DNA of 30,538 nt from a virus, in the IMG/VR virus record IMGVR_UViG_3300008740_000635, positions 1 to 30,538 of that record, one strand, 5' to 3'. A model generated the notes under the pieces. That model saw only the letters and a list, made by a program, of their open reading frames with translations. It ran no database searches and was not told the DNA's origin. Shown piece after piece: positions 1 through 28,692 of the stretch. Within the stretch, counting starts at the first letter, position 1; every line of letters begins with the position of its first letter. Position numbers and translations under genes: made by a program.

Positions 1-795
1 GCATTCGGTCTCCAACGCTGACACGGGAGCGACCCGGGAAACGATCAGCCGAGACGCGCGGCGCTCGGCGTCAGCACGGCCGACAAGCCCGATCAGCTTC
101 GCGGTCCGTGTGTCCCCCTCGAGCGCGTCTAGCGCGGCCAGAACGGCCGGAGAGCAACGGAACGAAACGGTAACCAGCGCGGGTCGGTGCATCACTGACA
201 CTTTACCCCGTGGCGCTGACGCCGCGGCCCATAGGGGGCGCCGGCCGGCGTAGCCCGCGGGTCGGACGGCGCCGAGCTTCCACATCCAATCCAGGTCGGC
301 CCATTGCGTCGAGGGGTGGACGCCGACAAGCCGGGCCAGCTCCGAGCAAGCCAGCGGCCCCATCCGGTCGAGGTGACCCAAGGCCAGGAGGCGCCGGTGA
401 TGGGTGAGCGACGACGACCCGAGGCGCCGAGCTGGACGCCGCTGCGATCGGGCGTGCTCCCGCCGAGCATCGATCGCGGCCGCCAACCCGTCCCGCTCAT
501 CCGTCCCGATCGCCGTGAGCGCCACGTCGGCGGCCCGGCCGATCTCCCCTCTCCGGGTAGCGCGTCGATGGCGTTGCTCGGCGTGGGATACCACCGAGCG
601 CGCTACCATCACCACATAAGTCGAGAAGGCGCCGCGCCCAGGCTGCCACCCCGTCCCGCGCCGCTCCCGGAGCACGAGGCGCCGGAGCACGTCCTGCACT
701 ACATCGTCTAGATCCGCCCCGATCGCTGCACACCGACGCGAGAACTGGGACTGCACCAGCCGAGCGACCTCGGTATGCCGCCGAGCTATCTCCAC
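1..795 (-). CDS. Sigma-70 region 2-like protein with C-terminal DNA-binding segments (3' end outside window)
   Basis: An open frame starts at GTG 795, just downstream of a GGGGGG purine run and an in-frame stop (TAG at 813-811), and stays open to the left edge: 265 codons seen. Residues 29-85 look like sigma-70 region 2: DLDDVVQDVLRRLVLRER, then a GAFSTYVVMVARSVVSHAEQ stretch and a basic RHRRATRRGE tail. This matches the core-binding/-10-recognition helix pattern of ECF sigma factors. Residues about 135-180 (LLALGHLDRMGPLACSELAR, LVGVHPSTQWADLDWMWKLG) read as a winged helix-turn-helix. From Met202 on, VTVSFRCSPAVLAALDALEG resembles a ribbon-helix-helix half, so the ORF may be a fusion, or a second gene may begin at ATG 192 in the same frame. 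It is the distal gene of the leftward early operon, separated from the VirE-like gene by the repeat region. Residue patterns are seen; transcription function is inferred, with no database search behind it. Confidence 0.62.
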   Translation of the reverse strand, partial: MEIARRHTEVARLVQSQFSRRCAAIGADLDDVVQDVLRRLVLRERRGTGWQPGRGAFSTYVVMVARSVVSHAEQRHRRATRRGEIGRAADVALTAIGTDERDGLAAAIDARREHARSQRRPARRLGSSSLTHHRRLLALGHLDRMGPLACSELARLVGVHPSTQWADLDWMWKLGAVRPAGYAGRRPLWAAASAPRGKVSVMHRPALVTVSFRCSPAVLAALDALEGDTRTAKLIGLVGRADAERRASRLIVSRVAPVSALETEC

Positions 796-796
796 G

Positions 797-1075
797 GTGA
801 CCCCCCGTGACTACCCGTGACCCCATAGGCAGTCACGCGATACCCGGCCGACAACGCCACGGATCCGCCTCCGTGACCCCCGTGACTACCTGGGCGCCTA
901 TATATTGATCTATCTCGAAAGAGAGAACCCCTATTCGAACCCTCTCTCTTATTGCAAATGATTCCATATATACGGGAGTAGGTAGTCACAGGGGTCACGG
1001 CGGTCACTATCATAGGTAGATCCCCCCATATAGCGTGACTACCCCAGGGGTCACGGCGTGACTACCTGGGGTCAC
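797..1075. repeat. GTGAC repeat cluster with AT-rich core (candidate replication origin or operator array)
   Basis: This non-coding gap holds about a dozen GTGAC/GTCAC half-sites in two flanking groups. GTGACTACC or its complement lies at 807-815, 882-890, 981-989, 1035-1043 and 1058-1066. GTGACCCC or its complement lies at 797-804, 817-824, 873-880, 991-998, 1047-1054 and 1068-1075. Shorter GTGAC-type half-sites are at 831-836 and 1002-1007. Most occur as adjacent pairs; 1035-1054 is an inverted pair of exactly 20 bp. Between the groups, about 897-975 is strikingly AT-rich for this genome and contains an inverted repeat. Iterons beside an AT-rich unwinding element, next to primase and helicase-like genes, is the classic look of a phage origin. 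An operator array controlling the sigma-like gene is the main alternative. The last copy overlaps the VirE-like stop codon. Confidence 0.6.
919..950. other. Inverted repeat in AT-rich core
   Basis: AAGAGAGA (919-926) pairs with TCTCTCTT (943-950) around a 16-nt loop. A smaller TCTC-gaaa-GAGA hairpin overlaps its left arm (913-924). No T-run follows on either strand, so an intrinsic terminator is not well supported. A structured element within a replication origin is an alternative. Confidence 0.4.
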
Positions 1076-2586
1076 GGCCCGGGCTCCCACACTTTGCCCG
1101 AGCGGGTGTGGCGTCGGACCCATCCATCGCCCCGTAGGATCCGGGCTATGCGCATCGAATGGCCCTGCCGGAGATCGCCTAGCCGCTTGCCTAGCGCCTC
1201 GGTCCAGACCGTAGCGATAGCGACCGGGCCACCGCCCCGAGACGCCAGCCAAGCCAGGATCGGATCCTGCCACGCGTCCACCTCGGAGAACAGTGGGGCG
1301 CTCTCGATCCGGCGCTCCTCTTCGGCCGGCGTCAGCCACCACGGCTCATCCGCCCGAAACAGCGCCACCGCCTCGGCCCACAGCTGATCCCGGACCGACG
1401 CCAACCCGTCCAGGTCGATCGGCTTGCCGTTCGCCCCGGTCTGGACGGGCCAGAAGCGCCGGCTACCGGTGGAGTCCCGCAAGAACGTGTCCTCATTGCT
1501 CGAGCCCACGATCACGCATTGCCGAGGGTAGGCGGACACGGCCCGACCATAGGGCGGACGATAGTAGTCGACCTGCGACGAGAGGAACGCCTTAACCGCG
1601 GTGACCTCGCTCCGGGCCACCTGATCGAGCTCGGCCATCTCGTAGAGCCACACCCGACGCAGAGCGAGCATCGCGTCCTTGTTCCGCAGGTCGATCACCG
1701 TATCTGCAAACCAATCCCCGCCCGCCAAGAGCCGAAGCGCCCTACTCTTGCCCAGCCCTTGATCGCCTTGCAGGATGAGCGTCGTGTCCACCTTGCATCC
1801 GGGCCGGTACACCCGGGCCACCGCGGAGATCAGCCACCGCCGAGCGTACGCCCGGACGATCCGCCGATCCGGGCTGCCGCAGTAGTCGACCAGCCACCCA
1901 TCCGCCCGCGCTACGCCGTCCCACTCGAGCCCGTCCAACCAATCGCAGATCGGGTGATACGGGTCAGCCTGGGCGACCAGCTCCACCGCCATCACGGTGT
2001 CCGCCTGGCTCACCCGGATCCCATAGGCGACGTCGAGCCAGATCCGGATCCGCCCGTTGTCGTGGTCCTCGATCGCCTTGCCGTCCAGCTCGGCGCCTTG
2101 GGCGTGTTCGTTCCACCGGATCCGGCCGCGCCAGTGGGGATCGAGCCGCAGCGCCCGCTCGGCATTGGCCAGGCTCCGGACGGGCTCACCCGAGGCGCCA
2201 TAGTCCAGCGCCGACAAGACGGCGTCGTGCCTCGGCGTCGCCCCGTCCTTGCAAGCCGCCCGGGTGACCCGGATCGCCGTCCGTAGCTCATCCGAGACCG
2301 CAGCGAACCCGCGCGAGTCTCGGAGGTGATCGAGCGACGCGGCCACCTCATCCGGATCGCACGAAGCCAGCGCCGCTAACAGCGTCGCATCACGGAGCAA
2401 CGCCCGCGCCTCGGCGCCCTTGGCCTCTTTGGCTTCGGCTCGGGCGGCCAGGTCCACGAGCAACGCCAACGCCTCCGCCCCCGATGTCGGCCCGCTCGGC
2501 TCGGCCTCATCCGGAGGCACCCACGGAACCCGCTTGATCTTGTCTAGCGTCCGCTCTCCGGGTGGGAGATCGTCGAAGCCCTTCAC
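1072..2586 (-). CDS. VirE-family P-loop NTPase (replicative helicase-like)
   Basis: The 504-aa protein has a Walker A motif, GDQGLGKS, at residues 274-281, a Walker B-like VWLYEMAEL at 312-320, and the segments SEVTAVKAFLSSQVDYYRPP (326-345) and FLRDSTGSRRFWPV (368-381). Together these are diagnostic of virulence-associated protein E-type proteins. In phages, members of this family sit after a primase-like protein and are thought to act as DNA-dependent ATPases/helicases in replication. The N-terminal 200 residues are alanine- and arginine-rich without a motif I can name. The start is GTG 2586, which overlaps the upstream primase stop by one base (TAGTG), implying translational coupling. The stop codon lies inside the GTGAC repeat cluster. 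Family assignment is firm; the exact enzymatic role is inferred from context. Confidence 0.9.
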   Translation of the reverse strand: MKGFDDLPPGERTLDKIKRVPWVPPDEAEPSGPTSGAEALALLVDLAARAEAKEAKGAEARALLRDATLLAALASCDPDEVAASLDHLRDSRGFAAVSDELRTAIRVTRAACKDGATPRHDAVLSALDYGASGEPVRSLANAERALRLDPHWRGRIRWNEHAQGAELDGKAIEDHDNGRIRIWLDVAYGIRVSQADTVMAVELVAQADPYHPICDWLDGLEWDGVARADGWLVDYCGSPDRRIVRAYARRWLISAVARVYRPGCKVDTTLILQGDQGLGKSRALRLLAGGDWFADTVIDLRNKDAMLALRRVWLYEMAELDQVARSEVTAVKAFLSSQVDYYRPPYGRAVSAYPRQCVIVGSSNEDTFLRDSTGSRRFWPVQTGANGKPIDLDGLASVRDQLWAEAVALFRADEPWWLTPAEEERRIESAPLFSEVDAWQDPILAWLASRGGGPVAIATVWTEALGKRLGDLRQGHSMRIARILRGDGWVRRHTRSGKVWEPGP

Positions 2587-3578
2587 TAGGTCCCCCGATA
2601 GACGCCGCAGCGCCGATAGAGCGCGGCGCCGATCGCCGCCTGATAGCCTTGGCCCGCCCCGTCGTCGTCGGTGGCGATGGTCACCACGGCCCCATCCGGC
2701 ACGCGTGCCGCGATCTCATCCGTCCAGCTACCCGCCACGACCCCGAGCACCGACGGCACGCATAGCGCGTCAACGCTGTACTCAGCCGCGGCCGCGAGCC
2801 AGCTCGGCCCGCCCTCGACCACGAGCACCTCGAACGGCGCACCGTCCGGCCACCACGTCGGCCGCGTGCCGTCCCGGAGCATCGCCCGGCCGGGTAGATC
2901 CGCGAAGACCAGCCCACCCGCCCGATACCCGGCCGGCGCTAGTGTCTTCGGCCCATCCCGCCCCGGCTCGACCTGCCGAGCCCGAATAGACCGCAGCGCC
3001 CCCGAGGCGTCGTACATCGGGAGCGCGCATCGGTGGCCGCTCTCATGCCACCGAGCCGTCGCCGGGTGGCTCGAGCTGGTCACGGCCCGGGCTAGATCCC
3101 GATCCTCGACGGCGGACGGGTCGACCTGCCGAGACTCGAGCCACCCGGCCACCTCGGCCGCGTCGCACACCATCGCAAGCGACGCCCACACCGCCTCGAC
3201 CATCTCCGCGGGTGGATAGCCGCGCTCGGGCTCGACCTGGGCGTCCACCTCGGCCCGGGGCGACGGCCTCCGCCTCCGTCGTCCCCGGGCGGGCTCATCC
3301 AGCCCGAACCACTCGCCCACCTCCCCGGGCTCTCGTGGGTCCACAACGGCGCCAGTCAACGCCCACGAGACCAGATCCACCACCGACCCGCCGCGCTCAC
3401 AAGCCCAGCAGCGCCACCGGCCCGCGTCGCTCACCGTGATCGGCGGCCGCTTGTCGCTCCGGCTTCGGCGGGACGCGTCGCAAGCCGGGCACGGACGGAT
3501 CCCCCGCCCCCACGTGAGCCCAAGCCGCTCAACGGCATCACGGATCGGCGTCCGCTTTGCCTCGGCTATCCACCTCAC
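2586..3578 (-). CDS. DNA primase-like protein: zinc ribbon plus TOPRIM-like domain
   Basis: A 330-aa protein. Four cysteines arranged CPAC...CWAC (residues 30, 33, 57, 60) form the N-terminal zinc ribbon typical of DnaG/gp4-type primases. TOPRIM-like signatures follow: VLVVEGGPSWLAA (about 251-263) with the conserved Glu, and ATDDDGAGQGY (about 302-312) with the acidic metal-binding cluster. The central CDAAEVAGWLESRQVDPSAV region resembles the linker seen in phage primase/helicase proteins. I chose GTG 3578 because it overlaps the upstream gene's stop as GTGA and removes a 40-residue Gly/Arg-rich stretch that only mirrors the neighbouring gene. It is followed by the VirE-like NTPase, so the two probably act together at the replication fork. 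An origin-like repeat region lies just downstream of that pair. Confidence 0.87.
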   Translation of the reverse strand: MRWIAEAKRTPIRDAVERLGLTWGRGIRPCPACDASRRSRSDKRPPITVSDAGRWRCWACERGGSVVDLVSWALTGAVVDPREPGEVGEWFGLDEPARGRRRRRPSPRAEVDAQVEPERGYPPAEMVEAVWASLAMVCDAAEVAGWLESRQVDPSAVEDRDLARAVTSSSHPATARWHESGHRCALPMYDASGALRSIRARQVEPGRDGPKTLAPAGYRAGGLVFADLPGRAMLRDGTRPTWWPDGAPFEVLVVEGGPSWLAAAAEYSVDALCVPSVLGVVAGSWTDEIAARVPDGAVVTIATDDDGAGQGYQAAIGAALYRRCGVYRGT

Positions 3579-3862
3579 AGCAGCGCCCGCCAGTCCCCAC
3601 CGTCCGCCATGTGTCCCCGGATCGTCTCCACCGGATCCGGGTGGCCGTCCGCCTCGAGCAGCAAGAGCGCCCACGACCACTCCGCCACCCACGCGCAATT
3701 GCGCGGCTCATCCGCCATCTCAACGAAGACCAGCAGCCCGGTCGGGTACGGTGAGCGCTGGACCACCCGCCACCCGGCCACCACATCACCGGCCCGCGGG
3801 TCGGTTCGCGGGTCTCGGGGCGAGAGCCACCCGGGCCGCGTGAATAGCTCGATCTGGCTCAT
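3575..3862 (-). CDS. Small hypothetical protein in the early operon
   Basis: A 95-aa protein beginning MSQIELFTRPGWLSPRD. I do not recognise a family. It is tryptophan-rich (GWRVV, CAWVAEWSWALLLLE) with an acidic C-terminal half and no signal peptide or membrane segment. I preferred the ATG at 3862 over one 18 bases upstream because it overlaps the preceding stop as ATGA. Its own stop overlaps the primase GTG by four bases. It is translationally coupled on both sides, between an HTH protein and a primase, which suggests an accessory early role. Confidence 0.75.
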   Translation of the reverse strand: MSQIELFTRPGWLSPRDPRTDPRAGDVVAGWRVVQRSPYPTGLLVFVEMADEPRNCAWVAEWSWALLLLEADGHPDPVETIRGHMADGGDWRALL

Positions 3863-5711: not shown

Positions 5712-5864
5712 GATCGCGGCCGGTAGAGGCAAGATGCGGTGAGCGCCCGTCAAACGCCCTCGGGTCCCGGTGCTCTCGCCGGAGCGCGCCAGAATTACGC
5801 CACCCACGCCGCGAAATTGCGACGCGGCAGCTCCCGCCTCATCTTGCCTCTGCCGACCGCGATC
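5712..5864. repeat. 25-bp inverted repeats bracketing a convergent intergenic segment
   Basis: The arm at 5712-5736 and the arm at 5840-5864 are inverted copies with two mismatches in 25 bases. They enclose 103 bp with no gene I can support. The left arm begins two bases after the RusA stop and the right arm ends in the stop codon of the methyltransferase, so the element exactly fills the gap between convergent genes. A long stem in both transcripts (bidirectional terminator or processing site) or the terminal repeats of a small inserted element would both fit. A minor hairpin, GCCGCG/CGCGGC, lies inside at 5808-5828. Confidence 0.6.
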
Positions 5865-5902
5865 AGCCAAAGAGCACCCCTTGACGTGGATCCGGTGTCG
5901 GC
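5863..5902. repeat. 40-bp direct repeat, copy 1 (3' end of SPPY methyltransferase)
   Basis: Identical to 6836-6875 except for one base (5895 versus 6868). On the minus strand it encodes the terminal DPRQGVLFG and the stop codon. It also overlaps the right arm of the 25-bp inverted repeat. Confidence 0.85.
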
Positions 5903-6843
5903 GCTCGAAGGTTGGCGGCCGGGTTGGCGATCCTGGCCTCCGCCAGCGCTGCAAACGCCGGCGATAGCTCACACCCGATGAAGCGCCGGCCGTGGCCAGT
6001 GGCTACGACGCCCACCGTCCCAGCGCCGGCGAATGGGTCGAGCACCAAGCCCCCAACGGGTGACCCGGCCTTGACGCACGGGATCACCAGCGCCGGAGGC
6101 ATCACGGCGAAGTGAGCGCCGGGGAATGGCTGGGTCGGGATGGTCCAGACGGAGCGCTTGTTGCGGTACGCGCCCCCCGTCACCAGCCCGCCGACGCTGT
6201 GCTGCCCCCGCTCGACGTGGCTTGCACCACCCACGTTGTCCGCCCGGACAGGCTCGACGCTTCGCTCCTTCACAGCGTCGGCATCGTAGTAATACCGCCC
6301 CTTGCTCTCGGGATGGGCCAGCAGGAACAGGTACTCATGGGCCTTGGTGGGCCGGTCCGTGACGCTCTCCGGCATCGGGTTGGGTTTCGCCCAGATGATG
6401 TCGGAGCGCAGATACCAACCGTCCGCCTGGAGAGCGAAGGCCACACGCCAGGGGATGCCGCATAGGTCCTTTGGCTTGAGCCCGGGCGCTTTGGGGCGCG
6501 ACCCTTGCGGTCCTGGGTTGCCACTGCCTAGATGGTTCCCGCCCCTACCGCCTATGTCCCGGTCTGCGTCGTTCCGGCCCATTGTTCCGCCGCCCGCGTA
6601 ACTATCGCCCAGATTCAGCCAAAGGGTCCCATCCGGCCGCAGGACCCGCGCAACGGCCCGGAACACCTCAACCATGCCGGCCACGTATTCGTCGGGCGTC
6701 TGCTCAAGCCCCATCTGTCCATCGTGGCCATAGTCCCGGAGACCCCAGTAGGGCGGGCTGGTGATGCACGTGTGGACGGACCCGGCCTCCAGGGTGGCCA
6801 GGCCATCCCTACAATCACCCACGATGATCCGAGCGTCAGCCAA
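5863..6843 (-). CDS. Beta-class DNA methyltransferase (SPPY type, m4C or m6A)
   Basis: A 326-aa protein. Catalytic motif IV, TSPPYWGLRDYG (28-39), precedes the AdoMet-binding motif I, DPFAGAGTVG (269-278), which is the beta-class order of DNA amino-methyltransferases. The SPPY form is commonest in N4-cytosine enzymes, but m6A cannot be excluded. The segment ALQADGWYLRSDIIWAKPNP is also typical. TTG 6843 is preferred over ATG 6930, which would overlap the upstream gene by about 95 bases. AAGGGG lies six bases before the TTG, within the 40-bp repeat that encodes the end of the upstream methyltransferase. The same repeat recurs at this gene's own 3' end, so both proteins finish with DPRQGVLFG. 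No restriction nuclease is nearby, suggesting protection of phage DNA from host restriction. Confidence 0.87.
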   Translation of the reverse strand: MADARIIVGDCRDGLATLEAGSVHTCITSPPYWGLRDYGHDGQMGLEQTPDEYVAGMVEVFRAVARVLRPDGTLWLNLGDSYAGGGTMGRNDADRDIGGRGGNHLGSGNPGPQGSRPKAPGLKPKDLCGIPWRVAFALQADGWYLRSDIIWAKPNPMPESVTDRPTKAHEYLFLLAHPESKGRYYYDADAVKERSVEPVRADNVGGASHVERGQHSVGGLVTGGAYRNKRSVWTIPTQPFPGAHFAVMPPALVIPCVKAGSPVGGLVLDPFAGAGTVGVVATGHGRRFIGCELSPAFAALAEARIANPAANLRAPTPDPRQGVLFG

Positions 6844-6875
6844 AGAGCACCCCTTGACGTGGATCCGTTGTCGGC
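6836..6875. repeat. 40-bp direct repeat, copy 2 (junction of the two methyltransferase genes)
   Basis: This copy encodes the last residues (DPRQGVLFG) and stop of the DPPY methyltransferase. In another frame it carries the AAGGGG ribosome-binding site and TTG start of the next methyltransferase. The two copies are 973 bp apart, so the SPPY methyltransferase gene is exactly bounded by direct repeats. Confidence 0.85.
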
Positions 6876-8535: not shown

Positions 8536-9533
8536 GTCGTCACCTCCATTCGATCGAGCACCCGCAGCCCCACCTCATAGGCGCACTGCGGCACGACGGC
8601 ATTCCCCAGGCACCGCAGCCGAGCCACCCGATCTGGGACGGAGCGCGGCGGGACGGTGCGCGCTATCCCTCGCTCCCATTCTTCGGGATCGGTGCCTCGG
8701 TATGCCCAGGCGGAAAGCCCATGAGCAGCTCCACCCACGCCGGGTTCAGGGACCCCGCGGCTTGCCCGGCTAACTTGCCCCTCTTTGCTATCTTCGCCCA
8801 ATCGACATTCGCGCCGCTGTCCTTGTGATCTCGGCTGCACGGCGTAGACCATCTCCGGGGCGTGTTGCTGTTGCCGAATCGAACCGCGTCGGTCAGGCTC
8901 ACCCCCGCGTGGGCCTTGCTCCCCTCGAGGTTGCGCGACCCGCTGCCCTTTGCGTCGCCGGCCGTCGCCGTCGGCCACCGCCCCGTGAGCGGGGCCCGCG
9001 GCGTCGGGTAGCCACGCGATGATGAAGATCCGCCGACGAAGATGCGGGGCTCCCACCTCGGCCGCCGATAGCACCGACCACTCAGCATCGTACCCGAGTC
9101 CGGCCAACGCTCCGAGTACAACGTCAAGCCCCCGAACAATGAGCGCTGATACGTTCTCCAGCACGACGAATCGGGGTCGAACATCGCGAATGAGACGCCA
9201 CAGCTCCCACCACAGCCCAGATCGGGACCCCTCGAGCCCGGCGCCCTTGCCGGCGACGCTGATGTCTTGGCAGGGGAAGCCCCCGCAGATGAGATCGCAC
9301 GGCGGGAGCGGTTGGGTGAGCACACATCCGCCTCCGTCAACGGGTACGGCACGGTGAACCATTCGCACGTCTTCATATTGGATAGCCTCCGGCCAGTGAC
9401 GACGAAGAACCCGCCGACAATAGGGATCGAGCTCGACCTGGGCGACGGTATGGGCTCCGGGGATCGCCGCTTCAAGCCCCATCTCGAGCCCGCCGACGCC
9501 CGCGAATACGGAAACGATGCGAAGATCAAACAC
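8532..9533 (-). CDS. C5-cytosine DNA methyltransferase with two compensating frameshifts
   Basis: The frame reads 333 aa. Motif I FAGVGGLEMGL (10-20), the catalytic GGFPCQDIS (84-92, Cys88), ENVSAL (126-131) and RRRIF (166-170) define a C5-cytosine methyltransferase. The C terminus holds motif X, RLRCLGNAVVPQ. Between about 8990 and 8690, however, the expected family sequence (WPTATAGDAKGSG, LNPAWVELLMGFPPGHT) is in another frame. Removing one base from the GGGG at 8991-8994 and adding one to the GGG at 8685-8687 joins all parts into a normal protein. As given, the target-recognition region is scrambled, so the enzyme is inactive or the sequence has homopolymer errors. GTG 9533 is chosen for GAGGGG seven bases upstream; ATG 9554 is an alternative. 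The start overlaps the PAPS-reductase-like gene. Confidence 0.85.
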   Translation of the reverse strand: MFDLRIVSVFAGVGGLEMGLEAAIPGAHTVAQVELDPYCRRVLRRHWPEAIQYEDVRMVHRAVPVDGGGCVLTQPLPPCDLICGGFPCQDISVAGKGAGLEGSRSGLWWELWRLIRDVRPRFVVLENVSALIVRGLDVVLGALAGLGYDAEWSVLSAAEVGAPHLRRRIFIIAWLPDAAGPAHGAVADGDGRRRKGQRVAQPRGEQGPRGGEPDRRGSIRQQQHAPEMVYAVQPRSQGQRRECRLGEDSKEGQVSRASRGVPEPGVGGAAHGLSAWAYRGTDPEEWERGIARTVPPRSVPDRVARLRCLGNAVVPQCAYEVGLRVLDRMEVTT

Positions 9534-10362
9534 CACACATCCCCTCGCATTCATTGCCCCAGTGTCCCCATAGGTCGCCTTGCGCGTCGAAATCAATGTT
9601 ATCGATCGGCACACCCGACCTGTGAAGCGTCGGTCTTGCCGATACCCCGGCGATCGCTCCTGCTTTCTCATATATGCGATGCATAGAACGCTCGAACCGC
9701 ACCGCATGCGCGAACGCGTCCGGTTCTTGGCTTTTGAGCCGCTTCCATTCCGCGTTCGAATGGAACGGACAGAACGTGCAGGCCGATCTAGGCGCGTCGA
9801 TCCCTGCATCTGAAAGCATCTTGAGACAATCTGTTCGCCTCAGTCCGAGATCGATCAGCGGATAGGCCACGTCATACCAGCCAGCCCCGGGCGGTTTCAT
9901 TCGGTGGGCCTCGTCCAAGGAAATCCCCATCCATTGGACCACCTGAATCCCGCTGCGCGGCCGAATCTCGAATCGATCCCTCAGCCATCGCTTGATCGGC
10001 CTAATCTTGAATCTTTCTGTGCATTGCCTGCGCGCTGGCATCCGGGCGCCAGGCTTTGTCGGATCTGGGATAAAGATCGGCGGCTGGATCACGTTGCCCC
10101 GCTCCTCAGCGGCAGACAAGAACAACGCTGACAACGACATTCCGGATTCATGCTTCACGATAGCAAGCTCCGATCCCATTGCCGCGATCCGGGCCCTCGC
10201 CCATTCCAGCTGTCTATACACGGACTGAGGCTCGTCGCCGGTGTCCGCAAAGATCCACGCATCGGGCGTTGGTAACTGGCCTTGTTCCACTAGATACAGA
10301 ATCGCCGTCGACTGTACGCCCGCCCCGAAGCTAACAACGATCGGCGCGCCCGATTGGATCAT
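9526..10362 (-). CDS. PAPS-reductase-family (PP-loop) protein
   Basis: A 278-aa protein. VSFGAGVQSTA (10-20) is an SxGxxS-type PP-loop that binds adenylated substrates, as in PAPS reductases and related enzymes such as DndC and tRNA-thiolation ATPases. Later conserved features are RRQCTERFKIRPIKRWL (111-127), CTFCPFHSNAEWKRL (195-209) and a terminal CEGMC (272-276). The spread cysteines could hold an Fe-S cluster. In phages such proteins are common, usually with unknown substrate. ATG 10362 overlaps the upstream HTH stop as ATGA, and the C5-methyltransferase begins within its 3' end. Its base composition is visibly more AT-rich than its neighbours (for example around 9990-10030), suggesting separate acquisition. 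Sulfur assimilation, nucleic-acid thiolation or another adenylation role are all possible. Confidence 0.85.
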   Translation of the reverse strand: MIQSGAPIVVSFGAGVQSTAILYLVEQGQLPTPDAWIFADTGDEPQSVYRQLEWARARIAAMGSELAIVKHESGMSLSALFLSAAEERGNVIQPPIFIPDPTKPGARMPARRQCTERFKIRPIKRWLRDRFEIRPRSGIQVVQWMGISLDEAHRMKPPGAGWYDVAYPLIDLGLRRTDCLKMLSDAGIDAPRSACTFCPFHSNAEWKRLKSQEPDAFAHAVRFERSMHRIYEKAGAIAGVSARPTLHRSGVPIDNIDFDAQGDLWGHWGNECEGMCGV

Positions 10363-14118: not shown

Positions 14119-14589
14119 CTAGTAAATGAACCAATCGGTGCCGTCGCTGATTAGGCTGATCTGTTCCCATTGTGCGGTCAGAGACAATCCGGCCGCGCTG
14201 TAGTCGGTGCCGTCGATGAGAATGCCCGCGCCACTAGTGCGAACCTCGACGCCGACGGGCGAAGCCGCGATCGCCTTGCACGCCACCCGAGCGCCGGCCG
14301 ATGGCGCAGGGAGCGTTACCACACACGTTACGGCGTCGACCAGGACAAACTCACCGCCCGCCGCGGATCGGCTTGCGGTGGTCTCGGTGACCACCGACCA
14401 CACGGCCCCACCGCCACCCGGAAGGGTGCCGATCGTGATCCGCCTCTTTGCGTTGCTCGCGGCGGAGTCCTCGATCAGCAGGAGATCCGCGCTCACCGGC
14501 GACATTTTGGCCGCCACGGTGGCGATCTCGGCCGCGGTCGAGCGGTGGATCGCGTCCGGGTCGGTGGCGCCGAAGAATGACCCGATCAT
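14119..14589 (-). CDS. Small tail fibre-like protein
   Basis: A 156-aa protein starting MIGSFFGATDPDAIHRSTAA. The C-terminal part (LVDAVTCVVTLPAPSAGARV, SGAGILIDGTDYSAAGLSLT and QWEQISLISDGTDWFIY) is the repeated beta-structured ending seen in many phage fibre and head-fibre proteins. The start is ATG 14589, sharing one base with the upstream stop (TGATG). The longer frame to 14910 is a shadow of that gene. It probably forms part of a distal fibre or decoration. Confidence 0.8.
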   Translation of the reverse strand: MIGSFFGATDPDAIHRSTAAEIATVAAKMSPVSADLLLIEDSAASNAKRRITIGTLPGGGGAVWSVVTETTASRSAAGGEFVLVDAVTCVVTLPAPSAGARVACKAIAASPVGVEVRTSGAGILIDGTDYSAAGLSLTAQWEQISLISDGTDWFIY

Positions 14590-14975
14590 CACAGCGTCCA
14601 AGAGACGCGGGCGATCCCCGTAGCCGTCCCCGCGTCGGTCTTCGCGTTGACGTAGATCGAGCCACCCGAGCCGACCCGGGCAAAGGCCAGCGTCGCCGCC
14701 ACGCCGCCCGATGTTGCGGTAGCGCCATCCGCGACGATCGTGGTGGTGAGCGTCGGCGTGATAGGGGCGTCCCCATCCGCATCGGCGGAGAGGTACCAGA
14801 TCACCGAAGCGGCGCCAGAGATCGTCGTCAGCTCGAGAGACGCCCAAGAAAGCGTCACCCGATCCGGGAGCGCTTCGGAGAGCGGGTCGGCCGCTGGCGT
14901 CGCCGTGCAAGCCATCCGCGCGTAGGTGGTGGAGAGCGCGGTACTAGCGCCCGCAGATAGGCCAGTGCGCGCCAT
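14589..14975 (-). CDS. Small structural protein (Ala/Thr-rich, beta-structured)
   Basis: A 128-aa protein beginning MARTGLSAGASTALSTTYAR, with Ala/Thr/Gly/Ser-rich strands (LTTTIVADGATATSGGVAAT) and ending GIARVSWTL. It looks like a compact Ig-like or decoration domain, but I cannot name a family. ATG 14975 follows a leader containing the GGTAGAATGGGG and CCGGGTCGCTCCCG elements that also precede the major capsid and major tail genes. That suggests it too is made in large amounts. Confidence 0.78.
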   Translation of the reverse strand: MARTGLSAGASTALSTTYARMACTATPAADPLSEALPDRVTLSWASLELTTISGAASVIWYLSADADGDAPITPTLTTTIVADGATATSGGVAATLAFARVGSGGSIYVNAKTDAGTATGIARVSWTL

Positions 14976-15008: not shown

Positions 15009-15042
15009 CGGGAGCGACCCGGGACCATTGCCCCATTCTACC
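15009..15042 (-). promoter_or_regulatory. Late leader element, copy before the 14975 gene
   Basis: On the minus strand, GGGTAGAATGGGGC is followed by CCCGGGTCGCTCCCG (15023-15009), whose CGGG/CCCG arms can form a small hairpin. It matches the leaders of the capsid and major tail genes with a few differences and lies 34 bases before the start codon. It could be a promoter, an RNA-processing site or a translation enhancer. Confidence 0.55.
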
Positions 15043-21743: not shown

Positions 21744-22169
21744 CTAGCCCTCCAATGCTCGGGTGATGGCCCGGCCGATCCGCAGCTCGACGTCTACCGA
21801 TGCCCGCTCCATCGGACGCCGGACAAACGCCACGTGCGGCGATCCCCCGTATAGCTTGCGAGCCTTGATGAAGAACCAGTATTGACGCCCGCTCTCGTCG
21901 CGGGCGGTGGAGATAATCCGCGCCCGCGCCTGGTTGGATGATTCGTCGACATAGACGTCCATTCGGAGCGATTCGCCCGATCGGCGTCGCCGCTGCTTCG
22001 GGCGGTCTCCGACCGGCCATTGCCGCCGAGCATCGGCCAGGATGGGCGCCACCTCGGCCTCGAGGGCCGCCATCACCTCGGAGAGAATCCCGCCCATGCG
22101 GCGCTCAAGCTCGGCCCCTATGTCGGGCACGGTGACCGATACATTGCCGCTGCGGAACGTCGTAGACAC
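21744..22169 (-). CDS. HK97 gp10-like tail/neck component
   Basis: A 141-aa protein starting MSTTFRSGNVSVTVPDIGAE. ARRQWPVGDRPKQRRRRSGE (48-67), the central beta region ARIISTARDESGRQYWFFIK and the late ELRIGRAITRAL helix resemble the HK97 gp10-like family of minor neck/tail proteins. Here it lies between the chaperone and the tape measure rather than before the major tail protein. The start is GTG 22169, downstream of a GGTAGAGTGGGG leader and GTGAGGTGG. Assignment is moderate. Confidence 0.7.
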   Translation of the reverse strand: MSTTFRSGNVSVTVPDIGAELERRMGGILSEVMAALEAEVAPILADARRQWPVGDRPKQRRRRSGESLRMDVYVDESSNQARARIISTARDESGRQYWFFIKARKLYGGSPHVAFVRRPMERASVDVELRIGRAITRALEG

Positions 22170-22182
22170 GGGGCCACCTCAC

Positions 22183-22194
22183 CCCCACTCTACC
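22183..22194 (-). promoter_or_regulatory. Late leader element before the gp10-like gene
   Basis: GGTAGAGTGGGG on the minus strand, overlapping the stop of the frameshifted chaperone product by one base. It is identical to the copies before the portal, capsid and major tail genes but lacks the CCGGGTCGCTCCCG hairpin part. Confidence 0.55.
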
Positions 22195-22678: not shown

Positions 22679-22707
22679 GTGTCGTCCCTCTCATGTTGCC
22701 GGGGGCG

Positions 22708-23272: not shown

Positions 23273-23311
23273 CGGGAGCGACCCGGTGGCGTTCACCCCC
23301 ACTCTACCGCG
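23273..23311 (-). promoter_or_regulatory. Late leader element before the major tail gene
   Basis: On the minus strand GCGGTAGAGTGGGGGTGAAC is followed by GCCACCGGGTCGCTCCCG. It differs from the capsid leader at only two or three positions. It starts 14 bases after the tail-terminator-like start region's upstream gene boundary and ends 35 bases before ATG 23238. The CGGG/CCCG arms can form a hairpin. Confidence 0.65.
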
Positions 23312-24680: not shown

Positions 24681-25518
24681 GTTCCGACTCCAGCTCTACC
24701 AGCCGACGGGAGATCGCCCGCTGGACACCCTTGCGCCCGTCCGCCTCGGCGGCCGCCTCGAGGATCGCCGGGTCGGTGACCTCGGCCACCCGGGCGACCA
24801 CGTCCGCCACTTTGCCATCGGTGAGCCCGGGAGGCTCGGCGGGCTCGGCCGCCTCGGCGGGTGGCTCCACCGGGGCGGATCCGCTGGACATGGACTGTCC
24901 ACCCAAGAGCGAGTCACGCGCCGCGGTCAAGATCGCCAGATCGTCGGTGAGGCGCTTGTGCGGTCCACGGAGGCTCGGCGTGTGGGCCACCCGATCCGCC
25001 ATCGTGTCGACCTGCCGCTGGGTATCCTCGATCATTCGCTCGACCACCCGCAGCGCGATCGGCGGGAGCACGCCCCGACCGATCAGCCCGGCAAGCCAAG
25101 AGGCGTAGCCGTCCAGGTCGCACCCGACCTGCTTCGACCCGCGATATAGCTTCGTCCACCGCGTCGCGTGGACCGTGCCCCGGATCCCCTCATGGGCGCG
25201 GATGTAGCTCGTGCCCTCTCCGTCCACGTCCCACGGGATCGTGATCCAGCCGCGCTCTTCGGTCTTGGCTAGGGCAAACTTGTAATTCCCCGCCTTGTCG
25301 ACCCGGTTAACTCCGGGCTCGATCCGCATCTGACGAAGCGACGGCACGAGGCGGCCGGCCATGATGGCCCACCGCTCCGGGTGAGCTTGTAGCAGGAAGA
25401 TCGGCGCCGGTGGGTGGTCGACCCGATGCACGGACGCCCGATCGGTATCGGGCAAGACGGGAGCGGATCCGGAGCTTTGCGCGCCCAGGTCCGCGGCGGG
25501 CTTGGTGAGTCTGGCCAT
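24667..25518 (-). CDS. Hypothetical head-region protein
   Basis: A 283-aa protein starting MARLTKPAADLGAQSSGSAP. The N-terminal half contains NRVDKAGNYKFALAKTEERG and GTVHATRWTKLYRG; the middle is helical. The C terminus (DPAILEAAAEADGRKGVQRA, ISRRLVELE) resembles the short helical LEAE..GK.RKGV..AI..R element found near the ends of many phage head proteins. Function unknown. It lies directly after the major capsid gene. ATG 25518 has the GAGGACGACGACACATGGCC cassette; the longer frame to 25608 runs back into the hairpin region. Confidence 0.72.
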   Translation of the reverse strand: MARLTKPAADLGAQSSGSAPVLPDTDRASVHRVDHPPAPIFLLQAHPERWAIMAGRLVPSLRQMRIEPGVNRVDKAGNYKFALAKTEERGWITIPWDVDGEGTSYIRAHEGIRGTVHATRWTKLYRGSKQVGCDLDGYASWLAGLIGRGVLPPIALRVVERMIEDTQRQVDTMADRVAHTPSLRGPHKRLTDDLAILTAARDSLLGGQSMSSGSAPVEPPAEAAEPAEPPGLTDGKVADVVARVAEVTDPAILEAAAEADGRKGVQRAISRRLVELESEHGQA

Positions 25519-25533
25519 GTGTCGTCGTCCTCT
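25513..25533 (-). repeat. Repeated ribosome-binding cassette, copy at the 283-aa gene
   Basis: AGAGGACGACGACACATGGC (minus strand) plus one more C, 21 bases identical to 27218-27238 before the scaffold gene. A shorter variant precedes the chaperone at 22678. The SD-like AGAGG is about ten bases from the ATG. Confidence 0.75.
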
Positions 25534-26562: not shown

Positions 26563-26600
26563 CGGGAGCGGCCCGGTGGCGTTCACCCCACTCTACCGCG
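26563..26600 (-). promoter_or_regulatory. Late leader element before the major capsid gene
   Basis: GCGCGGTAGAGTGGGGTGAA followed by CGCCACCGGGCCGCTCCCG on the minus strand; nearly identical to the major tail leader. It begins just after the scaffold stop. TAGAGT could serve as a -10-like box, but no -35 is visible 17 bases upstream. Confidence 0.65.
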
Positions 26601-26602
26601 CC

Positions 26603-27223
26603 TCACCCGCGGCGGTTCATTGACGCCAAGATCGCGTCCCGGTGCTCGGTGTATTGCTCGGGCGTCAGTTGTTTGATCCGCTCGGGCGTCCACTCGATCG
26701 AGCCATTCTCACCCACGCCAACGCGGGCGCCGGCCGATGATGGCGGGAGCGGTGGCCGGGATGGGGCGCCGGTGCCTTGCTCGCTCTCCGGCTCGAGAGC
26801 CACGGTGGACGCGGGAGCCTCGGCCGGCGTCAGGTATGGACGGAGCGGGATCGGGGCGTTGGATGGGTCGGCCCGAAGCCCATCCAGCCACGCCGCCATA
26901 TCGCCGCGCGTGTCTTCGGGGGCGCGATCGTAGAACATCCGCGCGACGGCTCGGCCGGCGTCGTCCGTAAAGCCGGCGCCGATCAGCGTGAGATCCCGGG
27001 CGTGGTCCACCCGGAGCGCCTCGAGCCCGGCCCGCGCCTCTTCGAGCTGGACGGTGAGCGCCGATGCGGTGGCCGCTTGAGCCTGTAAATCCGCGATCTC
27101 GTTCTTGAGATCGACGATCTGGCCTTGGGCGTCGTTGCGTTGCTCAACCACCCGTTGGAAGCGGTCGTATGGAATCCGCCCGGGCTCGACCGGGGGCGCC
27201 TCGTGATCGTGTTCTTCGGCCAT
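26603..27223 (-). CDS. Scaffold-like protein
   Basis: A 206-aa protein starting MAEEHDHEAPPVEPGRIPYD. FQRVVEQRNDAQGQIVDLKN and EIADLQAQAATASALTVQLE form a coiled coil (about 22-70). An acidic, proline-rich C terminus ends with TPERIKQLTPEQYTEHRDAI. This acidic/coiled-coil plan between the portal and capsid genes is typical of capsid scaffolds. ATG 27223 carries the GAGGACGACGACACATGGCC cassette. Confidence 0.82.
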   Translation of the reverse strand: MAEEHDHEAPPVEPGRIPYDRFQRVVEQRNDAQGQIVDLKNEIADLQAQAATASALTVQLEEARAGLEALRVDHARDLTLIGAGFTDDAGRAVARMFYDRAPEDTRGDMAAWLDGLRADPSNAPIPLRPYLTPAEAPASTVALEPESEQGTGAPSRPPLPPSSAGARVGVGENGSIEWTPERIKQLTPEQYTEHRDAILASMNRRG

Positions 27224-27238
27224 GTGTCGTCGTCCTCT
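27218..27238 (-). repeat. Repeated ribosome-binding cassette, copy at the scaffold gene
   Basis: 21 bases identical to 25513-25533, including the ATG and the second codon. It overlaps the end of the portal gene region. Confidence 0.75.
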
Positions 27239-28680: not shown

Positions 28681-28692
28681 CCCCACTCTACC
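28681..28692 (-). promoter_or_regulatory. Late leader element before the portal gene
   Basis: GGTAGAGTGGGG one base before ATG 28679 on the minus strand, between the terminase stop and the portal start. The CCGGGTCGCTCCCG part is absent. GTGGGG is too close to serve as a normal Shine-Dalgarno. Confidence 0.5.

Follow-up and report, generated by a model that had tools for sequence, protein, structure and literature searches.

To our knowledge, characterized phage sigma factors are few, and most of the known ones come from genomes larger than 30 kb. Three of them provide the closest points of reference here. The phiEco32 factor gp36 has no region 4 homology and serves promoters built of a single element, tAATGTAtA, from which transcription starts 6–8 bp downstream (PMC8948821). 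The late promoters of T4 have a −10-like element, and their −35 is not conserved (PMC7892883). Phage 7-11 encodes gp47, a factor with region 4 whose promoters are bipartite, of the form GTAAtg-(16)-aCTA (PMC8948821).

The window analyzed here is a complete IMG/VR record of 30,538 bases; contigs of this type may be fragments. Its minus strand carries, in order, genes for terminase, portal, capsid, tail, methylase, primase, and a VapE-type helicase, followed at the left edge by the gene of a sigma-like protein (Table 1). The capsid gene was assigned by PHROG; the putative portal gene is named from its position after terminase and the putative major tail gene from position alone, the PHROG search having returned no match for either. 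We computed directly a sigma-70 region 2 domain in the sigma-like protein and five copies of a short element, together with their position and strand. From these we infer, with slightly better than an even chance of being right, that a phage sigma factor reads GGTAGARTGGGG and drives the late genes. One 30-kb sequence is enough to name both a candidate sigma factor and its candidate promoters.

Table 1. Features of the sigma-like gene, the late elements, and the leader blocks (window positions).
Feature	Position	Strand	Basis or remark
Sigma-like gene	1..795	-	GTG start at 795; 3' end beyond window
Sigma-70 region 2, residues 19–77	565..741	-	PF04542; structural match
Helix-turn-helix, residues 138–185	241..384	-	PF22168 sub-threshold; winged-like or diverged region 4
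In-frame ATG, residue 202	190..192	-	Overlaps TGA of another frame (TGATG); ORF 192..500 ends there
Ribbon-helix-helix-like segment, within LVTVSFRCSPAVLAALDALEGDTRTAKLIGLVGRADAERRA	61..180	-	Sequence pattern
Late element GGTAGAGTGGGG	28681..28692	-	Directly before putative portal start 28679
Late element GGTAGAGTGGGG	26586..26597	-	Ahead of major capsid gene, start 26519
Late element GGTAGAGTGGGG	23297..23308	-	Ahead of putative major tail gene, start 23238
Late element GGTAGAGTGGGG	22183..22194	-	Ahead of gene 21744–22169
Late element GGTAGAATGGGG	15031..15042	-	Ahead of gene 14589–14975
Leader block CCGGGNCGCTCCCG, capsid gene	26563..26576	-	Possible hairpin
Leader block CCGGGNCGCTCCCG, putative major tail gene	23273..23286	-	Sequence repeat
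Leader block CCGGGNCGCTCCCG, gene 14589–14975	15009..15022	-	Sequence repeat

The GTG-started frame running off the left edge, described in a sequence-only reading of this DNA, is present, with 265 codons visible and only about five further open codons upstream of the GTG (an open frame of 270 codons). In log-odds of codon usage, for which the remaining phage genes served as training set, the sigma-like frame outscored both other minus-strand frames at each 120-nt step within the gene; values were low near 350–500 and 140–260.

Residues 19–77 are a real sigma-70 region 2, carrying DLDDVVQDV, which resembles region 2.2, and GRGAFSTYVVMVARSVVSHAEQRHRRA, which resembles regions 2.3/2.4. Against a curated cut-off of 24 bits, PF04542 scored 23.8 with the whole protein (0.2 bits short), 25.4 in the genome search, and 26.7 with the segment. 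The NCBIfam ECF sigma family TIGR02937 matched at an E-value of 2e-4, with 20.6 bits for the whole protein and 21 for the segment, below its curated cut-off of 42.9; all NCBIfam matches lie below their cut-offs, and all are sigma factors except one weak hypothetical. A single-sequence AlphaFold model was unusable (pLDDT 40). A second model, built from residues 1–200 paired with a single ECF sigma sequence, was usable only over about residues 1–85, and its mean pLDDT per ten residues was 65–87 across residues 1–80. When this model was searched with VIA-align, sigma factors or holoenzymes made up 13 of the 16 rows with Z of at least 2, at Z 5.2–8.2, values near 8 not being unusual for helical models; the non-sigma chains were spectrin and Cbl (Z 2.6–3.0) and a chain of an RNA polymerase II complex (Z 4.5). 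Since Z near 8 is not unusual and the ECF sequence in the alignment may have pushed the model towards a sigma shape, the sigma assignment rests first on the profile.

Overall, the region 2 helix pattern noticed in the sequence was borne out by profile and by model: PF04542 exceeded its cut-off for the segment, and structure prediction returned a sigma-type match, so that the outcome named beforehand as refuting the pattern, a lack of structural match to region 2, did not occur. We regard it as very improbable that the region 2 match reflects chance or helical resemblance and that the protein is a plain helix-turn-helix regulator. The whole-protein shortfall would fit that account, as would a Foldseek search of the PDB, which found no sigma match. 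It is opposed by the segment score, by NCBIfam matches nearly all named sigma factor, and by the dominance of sigma chains in VIA-align. Moreover, two proven phage sigma factors scored lower than the window protein against PF04542 from the same library (18.3 bits for phiEco32 gp36 and 13.1 for T4 gp55).

Beyond region 2, the protein is harder to classify. A later winged helix-turn-helix had also been proposed; the helix-turn-helix is plausible, and its wing finds little or no support in profiles. The best helix-turn-helix profile, the regulator C-terminal family PF22168, has a cut-off of 27 bits and reached 18.1 (E 0.003). The following stretch, LGAVRPAGYAGRRPLWAA, reads like a wing; we tentatively take the segment for a winged helix-turn-helix. 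Region 4 may be absent or diverged: its profiles PF04545 and PF08281 gave no match to the protein at E-values up to 10. As yardsticks in the same type of search, a Myxococcales ECF sigma (L014) scored 51.9 bits, and phiEco32 gp36 gave no match either. BLASTP aligned the Myxococcales protein with the window protein (2e-8, 32% identity, residues 27–168), and the alignment ends inside the region 4 of the former. This extent, along with the precedent of 7-11 gp47 and its bipartite promoters (PMC8948821), would suit an ordinary two-domain ECF-like sigma with a diverged region 4 and a bipartite promoter yet unrecognized. We nevertheless consider such a protein improbable, given the missing region 4 match beside the clear one of the Myxococcales sigma, the wing-like LGAVRPAGYAGRRPLWAA, and elements that have no conserved upstream block. 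The Myxococcales protein also differs in having no ribbon-helix-helix end.

That single ordinary ECF sigma was the only match among GTDB contigs, and a whole-genome search at E 0.01 did not retain it. Searches of phages, plasmids, and IMG/VR found no homologues of the sigma-like protein, and the sister contigs (L005–L007) stop short of its gene. Most likely, the protein is a new phage sigma factor of an already known kind.

Turning to the 3' part of the gene, a ribbon-helix-helix-like pattern spans residues 206–245 and shows the beta-alpha-alpha order in a low-confidence model. Residues 196–265 gave no ribbon-helix-helix profile match in Pfam, NCBIfam, or PHROG; being short, domains of this kind easily escape detection. 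The ribbon-helix-helix-like end of the sequence-only reading is therefore retained as a sequence pattern, with no backing from these profile collections. The same reading had placed all segments in one frame, and the frame is indeed open as sequenced, but a one-base assembly error in a GGGG run shortly before the ATG at 192–190 would split the ribbon-helix-helix part off; none of the sister contigs covers this spot.

The ATG is possibly the start of a separate ribbon-helix-helix protein. The locus would then hold two adjoining genes, one for a sigma/helix-turn-helix protein ending near residue 200 and one for a small ribbon-helix-helix regulator, their fusion being the product of that assembly error. 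We give this arrangement, which is compatible with a late sigma factor, a tentative probability somewhat short of even. A TGATG stop-start overlap falls exactly at the ATG, and the coding score drops around it. Directly upstream, at 207, lies GGTAAAGTG, which differs in one base from the first nine positions of the late element. Conversely, the sequence as it stands leaves the frame open, both sides of the spot are coding, and base composition already predicts roughly one GGTANANTG site on each strand (our own estimate from base frequencies). Given this chance level, we left GGTAAAGTG at 207, which would be a sixth element-like site, out of the late-element count.

The repeated leader elements reported ahead of major late genes are real. 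GGTAGARTGGGG occurs in five exact copies, on the minus (late) strand only, which end 2, 67, 59, 14, and 56 positions ahead of the next late gene start (in the order of Table 1, where the higher coordinate marks the beginning of each copy). Of the 12 positions in the 12-mer, 11 do not vary; these include the GG that precedes and the GGGG that follows a TAGAGT/TAGAAT hexamer. GGTAGARTGGGG was absent from all 200 sequences of equal length generated from an order-3 Markov model of the window. For a randomly chosen position, the probability of lying no more than 80 nt ahead of a start is 0.077, based on a list of starts that we selected ourselves from the ORF table. All sites precede late genes, and none lies before an early gene in the window. 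Beyond the 12-mer, the five elements share no conserved −35 or other upstream block; the −35 hexamers scored 4, 3, 2, 2, and 2, where random positions most often gave 2. All seven copies that we found in the sister contigs preserve the 12-mer, which is weak support from such close relatives. The element before the putative portal gene stops right before the ATG and thus fits a transcription start at or next to it.

The strongest rival to a phage-encoded reader is the host primary sigma. Both TAGAGT and TAGAAT pass as −10 hexamers. The elements could accordingly be host promoters of the TANNNT type, some nearly leaderless, with the phage protein acting otherwise, for example at other promoters or by competing with the host sigma; tagagt is also listed as a host −10 (PMC4331800). 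This account gains from the protein and the elements being linked by inference only. We nonetheless judge it rather unlikely: 11 of 12 positions do not vary, GG and GGGG flanks included, the −35 is absent, and the sites are confined to late genes within the window.

We favor the phage sigma factor because a region 2 protein and a single −10-like element form the same pairing as in phiEco32 and T4, with the protein as late sigma and the 12-mer as its promoter. The elements match the form used by phage sigmas without region 4, which strengthens the proposal that the sigma-like protein drives the late genes. In the mechanism that we envisage, region 2 would bind the host RNA polymerase core and recognize GGTAGARTGGGG, which would act as one extended −10-like element, and the polymerase would then transcribe the portal, capsid, tail, and further structural genes, presumably late in infection. 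The helix-turn-helix, and perhaps the ribbon-helix-helix segment, may replace the classical region 4 by contacting upstream DNA or serving autoregulation. In its strictest form, region 4 would be replaced by both a winged helix-turn-helix and a ribbon-helix-helix, so that one polypeptide combines a −10 reader with two unrelated operator-binding modules and serves a strict 12-bp single-element late promoter; this we consider unlikely. If it holds, promoter-reading modules of sigma factors would be exchangeable.

The nearest system in these terms is phiEco32. Like the window protein, gp36 has region 2 and no detected region 4, and its single-element promoters precede middle and late genes, similar in form and position to the GGTAGARTGGGG sites, here candidate promoters. 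The two proteins have no sequence relationship, sharing an 8-residue match alone (E 2.5); the phiEco32 element differs from that of the window, gp36 lacks the extra helix-turn-helix and ribbon-helix-helix-like part, and the phiEco32 genome measures 77.6 kb, compared with about 30 kb for the window record. Similarly, T4 gp55 is a region-2-type factor serving −10-only late promoters, but with a different element, and it works with gp33 and the sliding clamp gp45, neither of which was identified among the window proteins searched. Phage 7-11 gp47 resembles the candidate in serving promoters ahead of late genes and differs from it by its region 4 and its bipartite promoters.

Further repeats accompany the late genes. 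About 25 nt downstream of the element, including CCGGGNCGCTCCCG, are common to the leaders of the capsid and putative tail genes, and CCGGGNCGCTCCCG could form a small hairpin. An exact copy of the leader block (CCGGGTCGCTCCCG, window 24–37) lies within the 3' part of the sigma-like frame and has no 12-mer upstream. The start context GAGGACGACGACACATGGCC, or a near-match, precedes three late starts (27218–27238, 25513–25533, and 22679–22700).

The sigma-like gene falls at the contig edge, as would any element preceding the terminase genes. In a distantly related record (L004), the terminase genes follow within a few genes of the helicase, so the sigma gene may lie just upstream of the packaging genes on a circular map. 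The ends of the contig could not be joined through L005 or L007, which show no overlap with the left end of the window. Both exceed its right end by about 180 nt (L005 1–186, L007 1–179). Their starts lie at most 7 nt apart, just upstream of the start of a putative small terminase; this point may be a physical end of the genome or a break in the assembly.

The intergenic region at window 781–1082, which separates the sigma-like gene from the VapE-type helicase, contains 13 GTGAC boxes, compared with 0.45 expected, mostly as inverted arms around the window's lowest-GC stretch (45% versus 68%). This region folds far better than shuffled sequences (z −5) and is a candidate replication origin or operator array. 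Elsewhere, the putative primase (2586–3698) weakly matches the PADLOC model RTasDnaG-like (E 3e-5), probably through no more than a shared primase domain. A phosphoadenosine phosphosulfate reductase-like gene (9526–10362) adjoins three DNA methylases, and a 40-nt block is repeated at 98% at the 3' ends of two adjoining DNA methylase genes (5863–5902 and 6836–6875).
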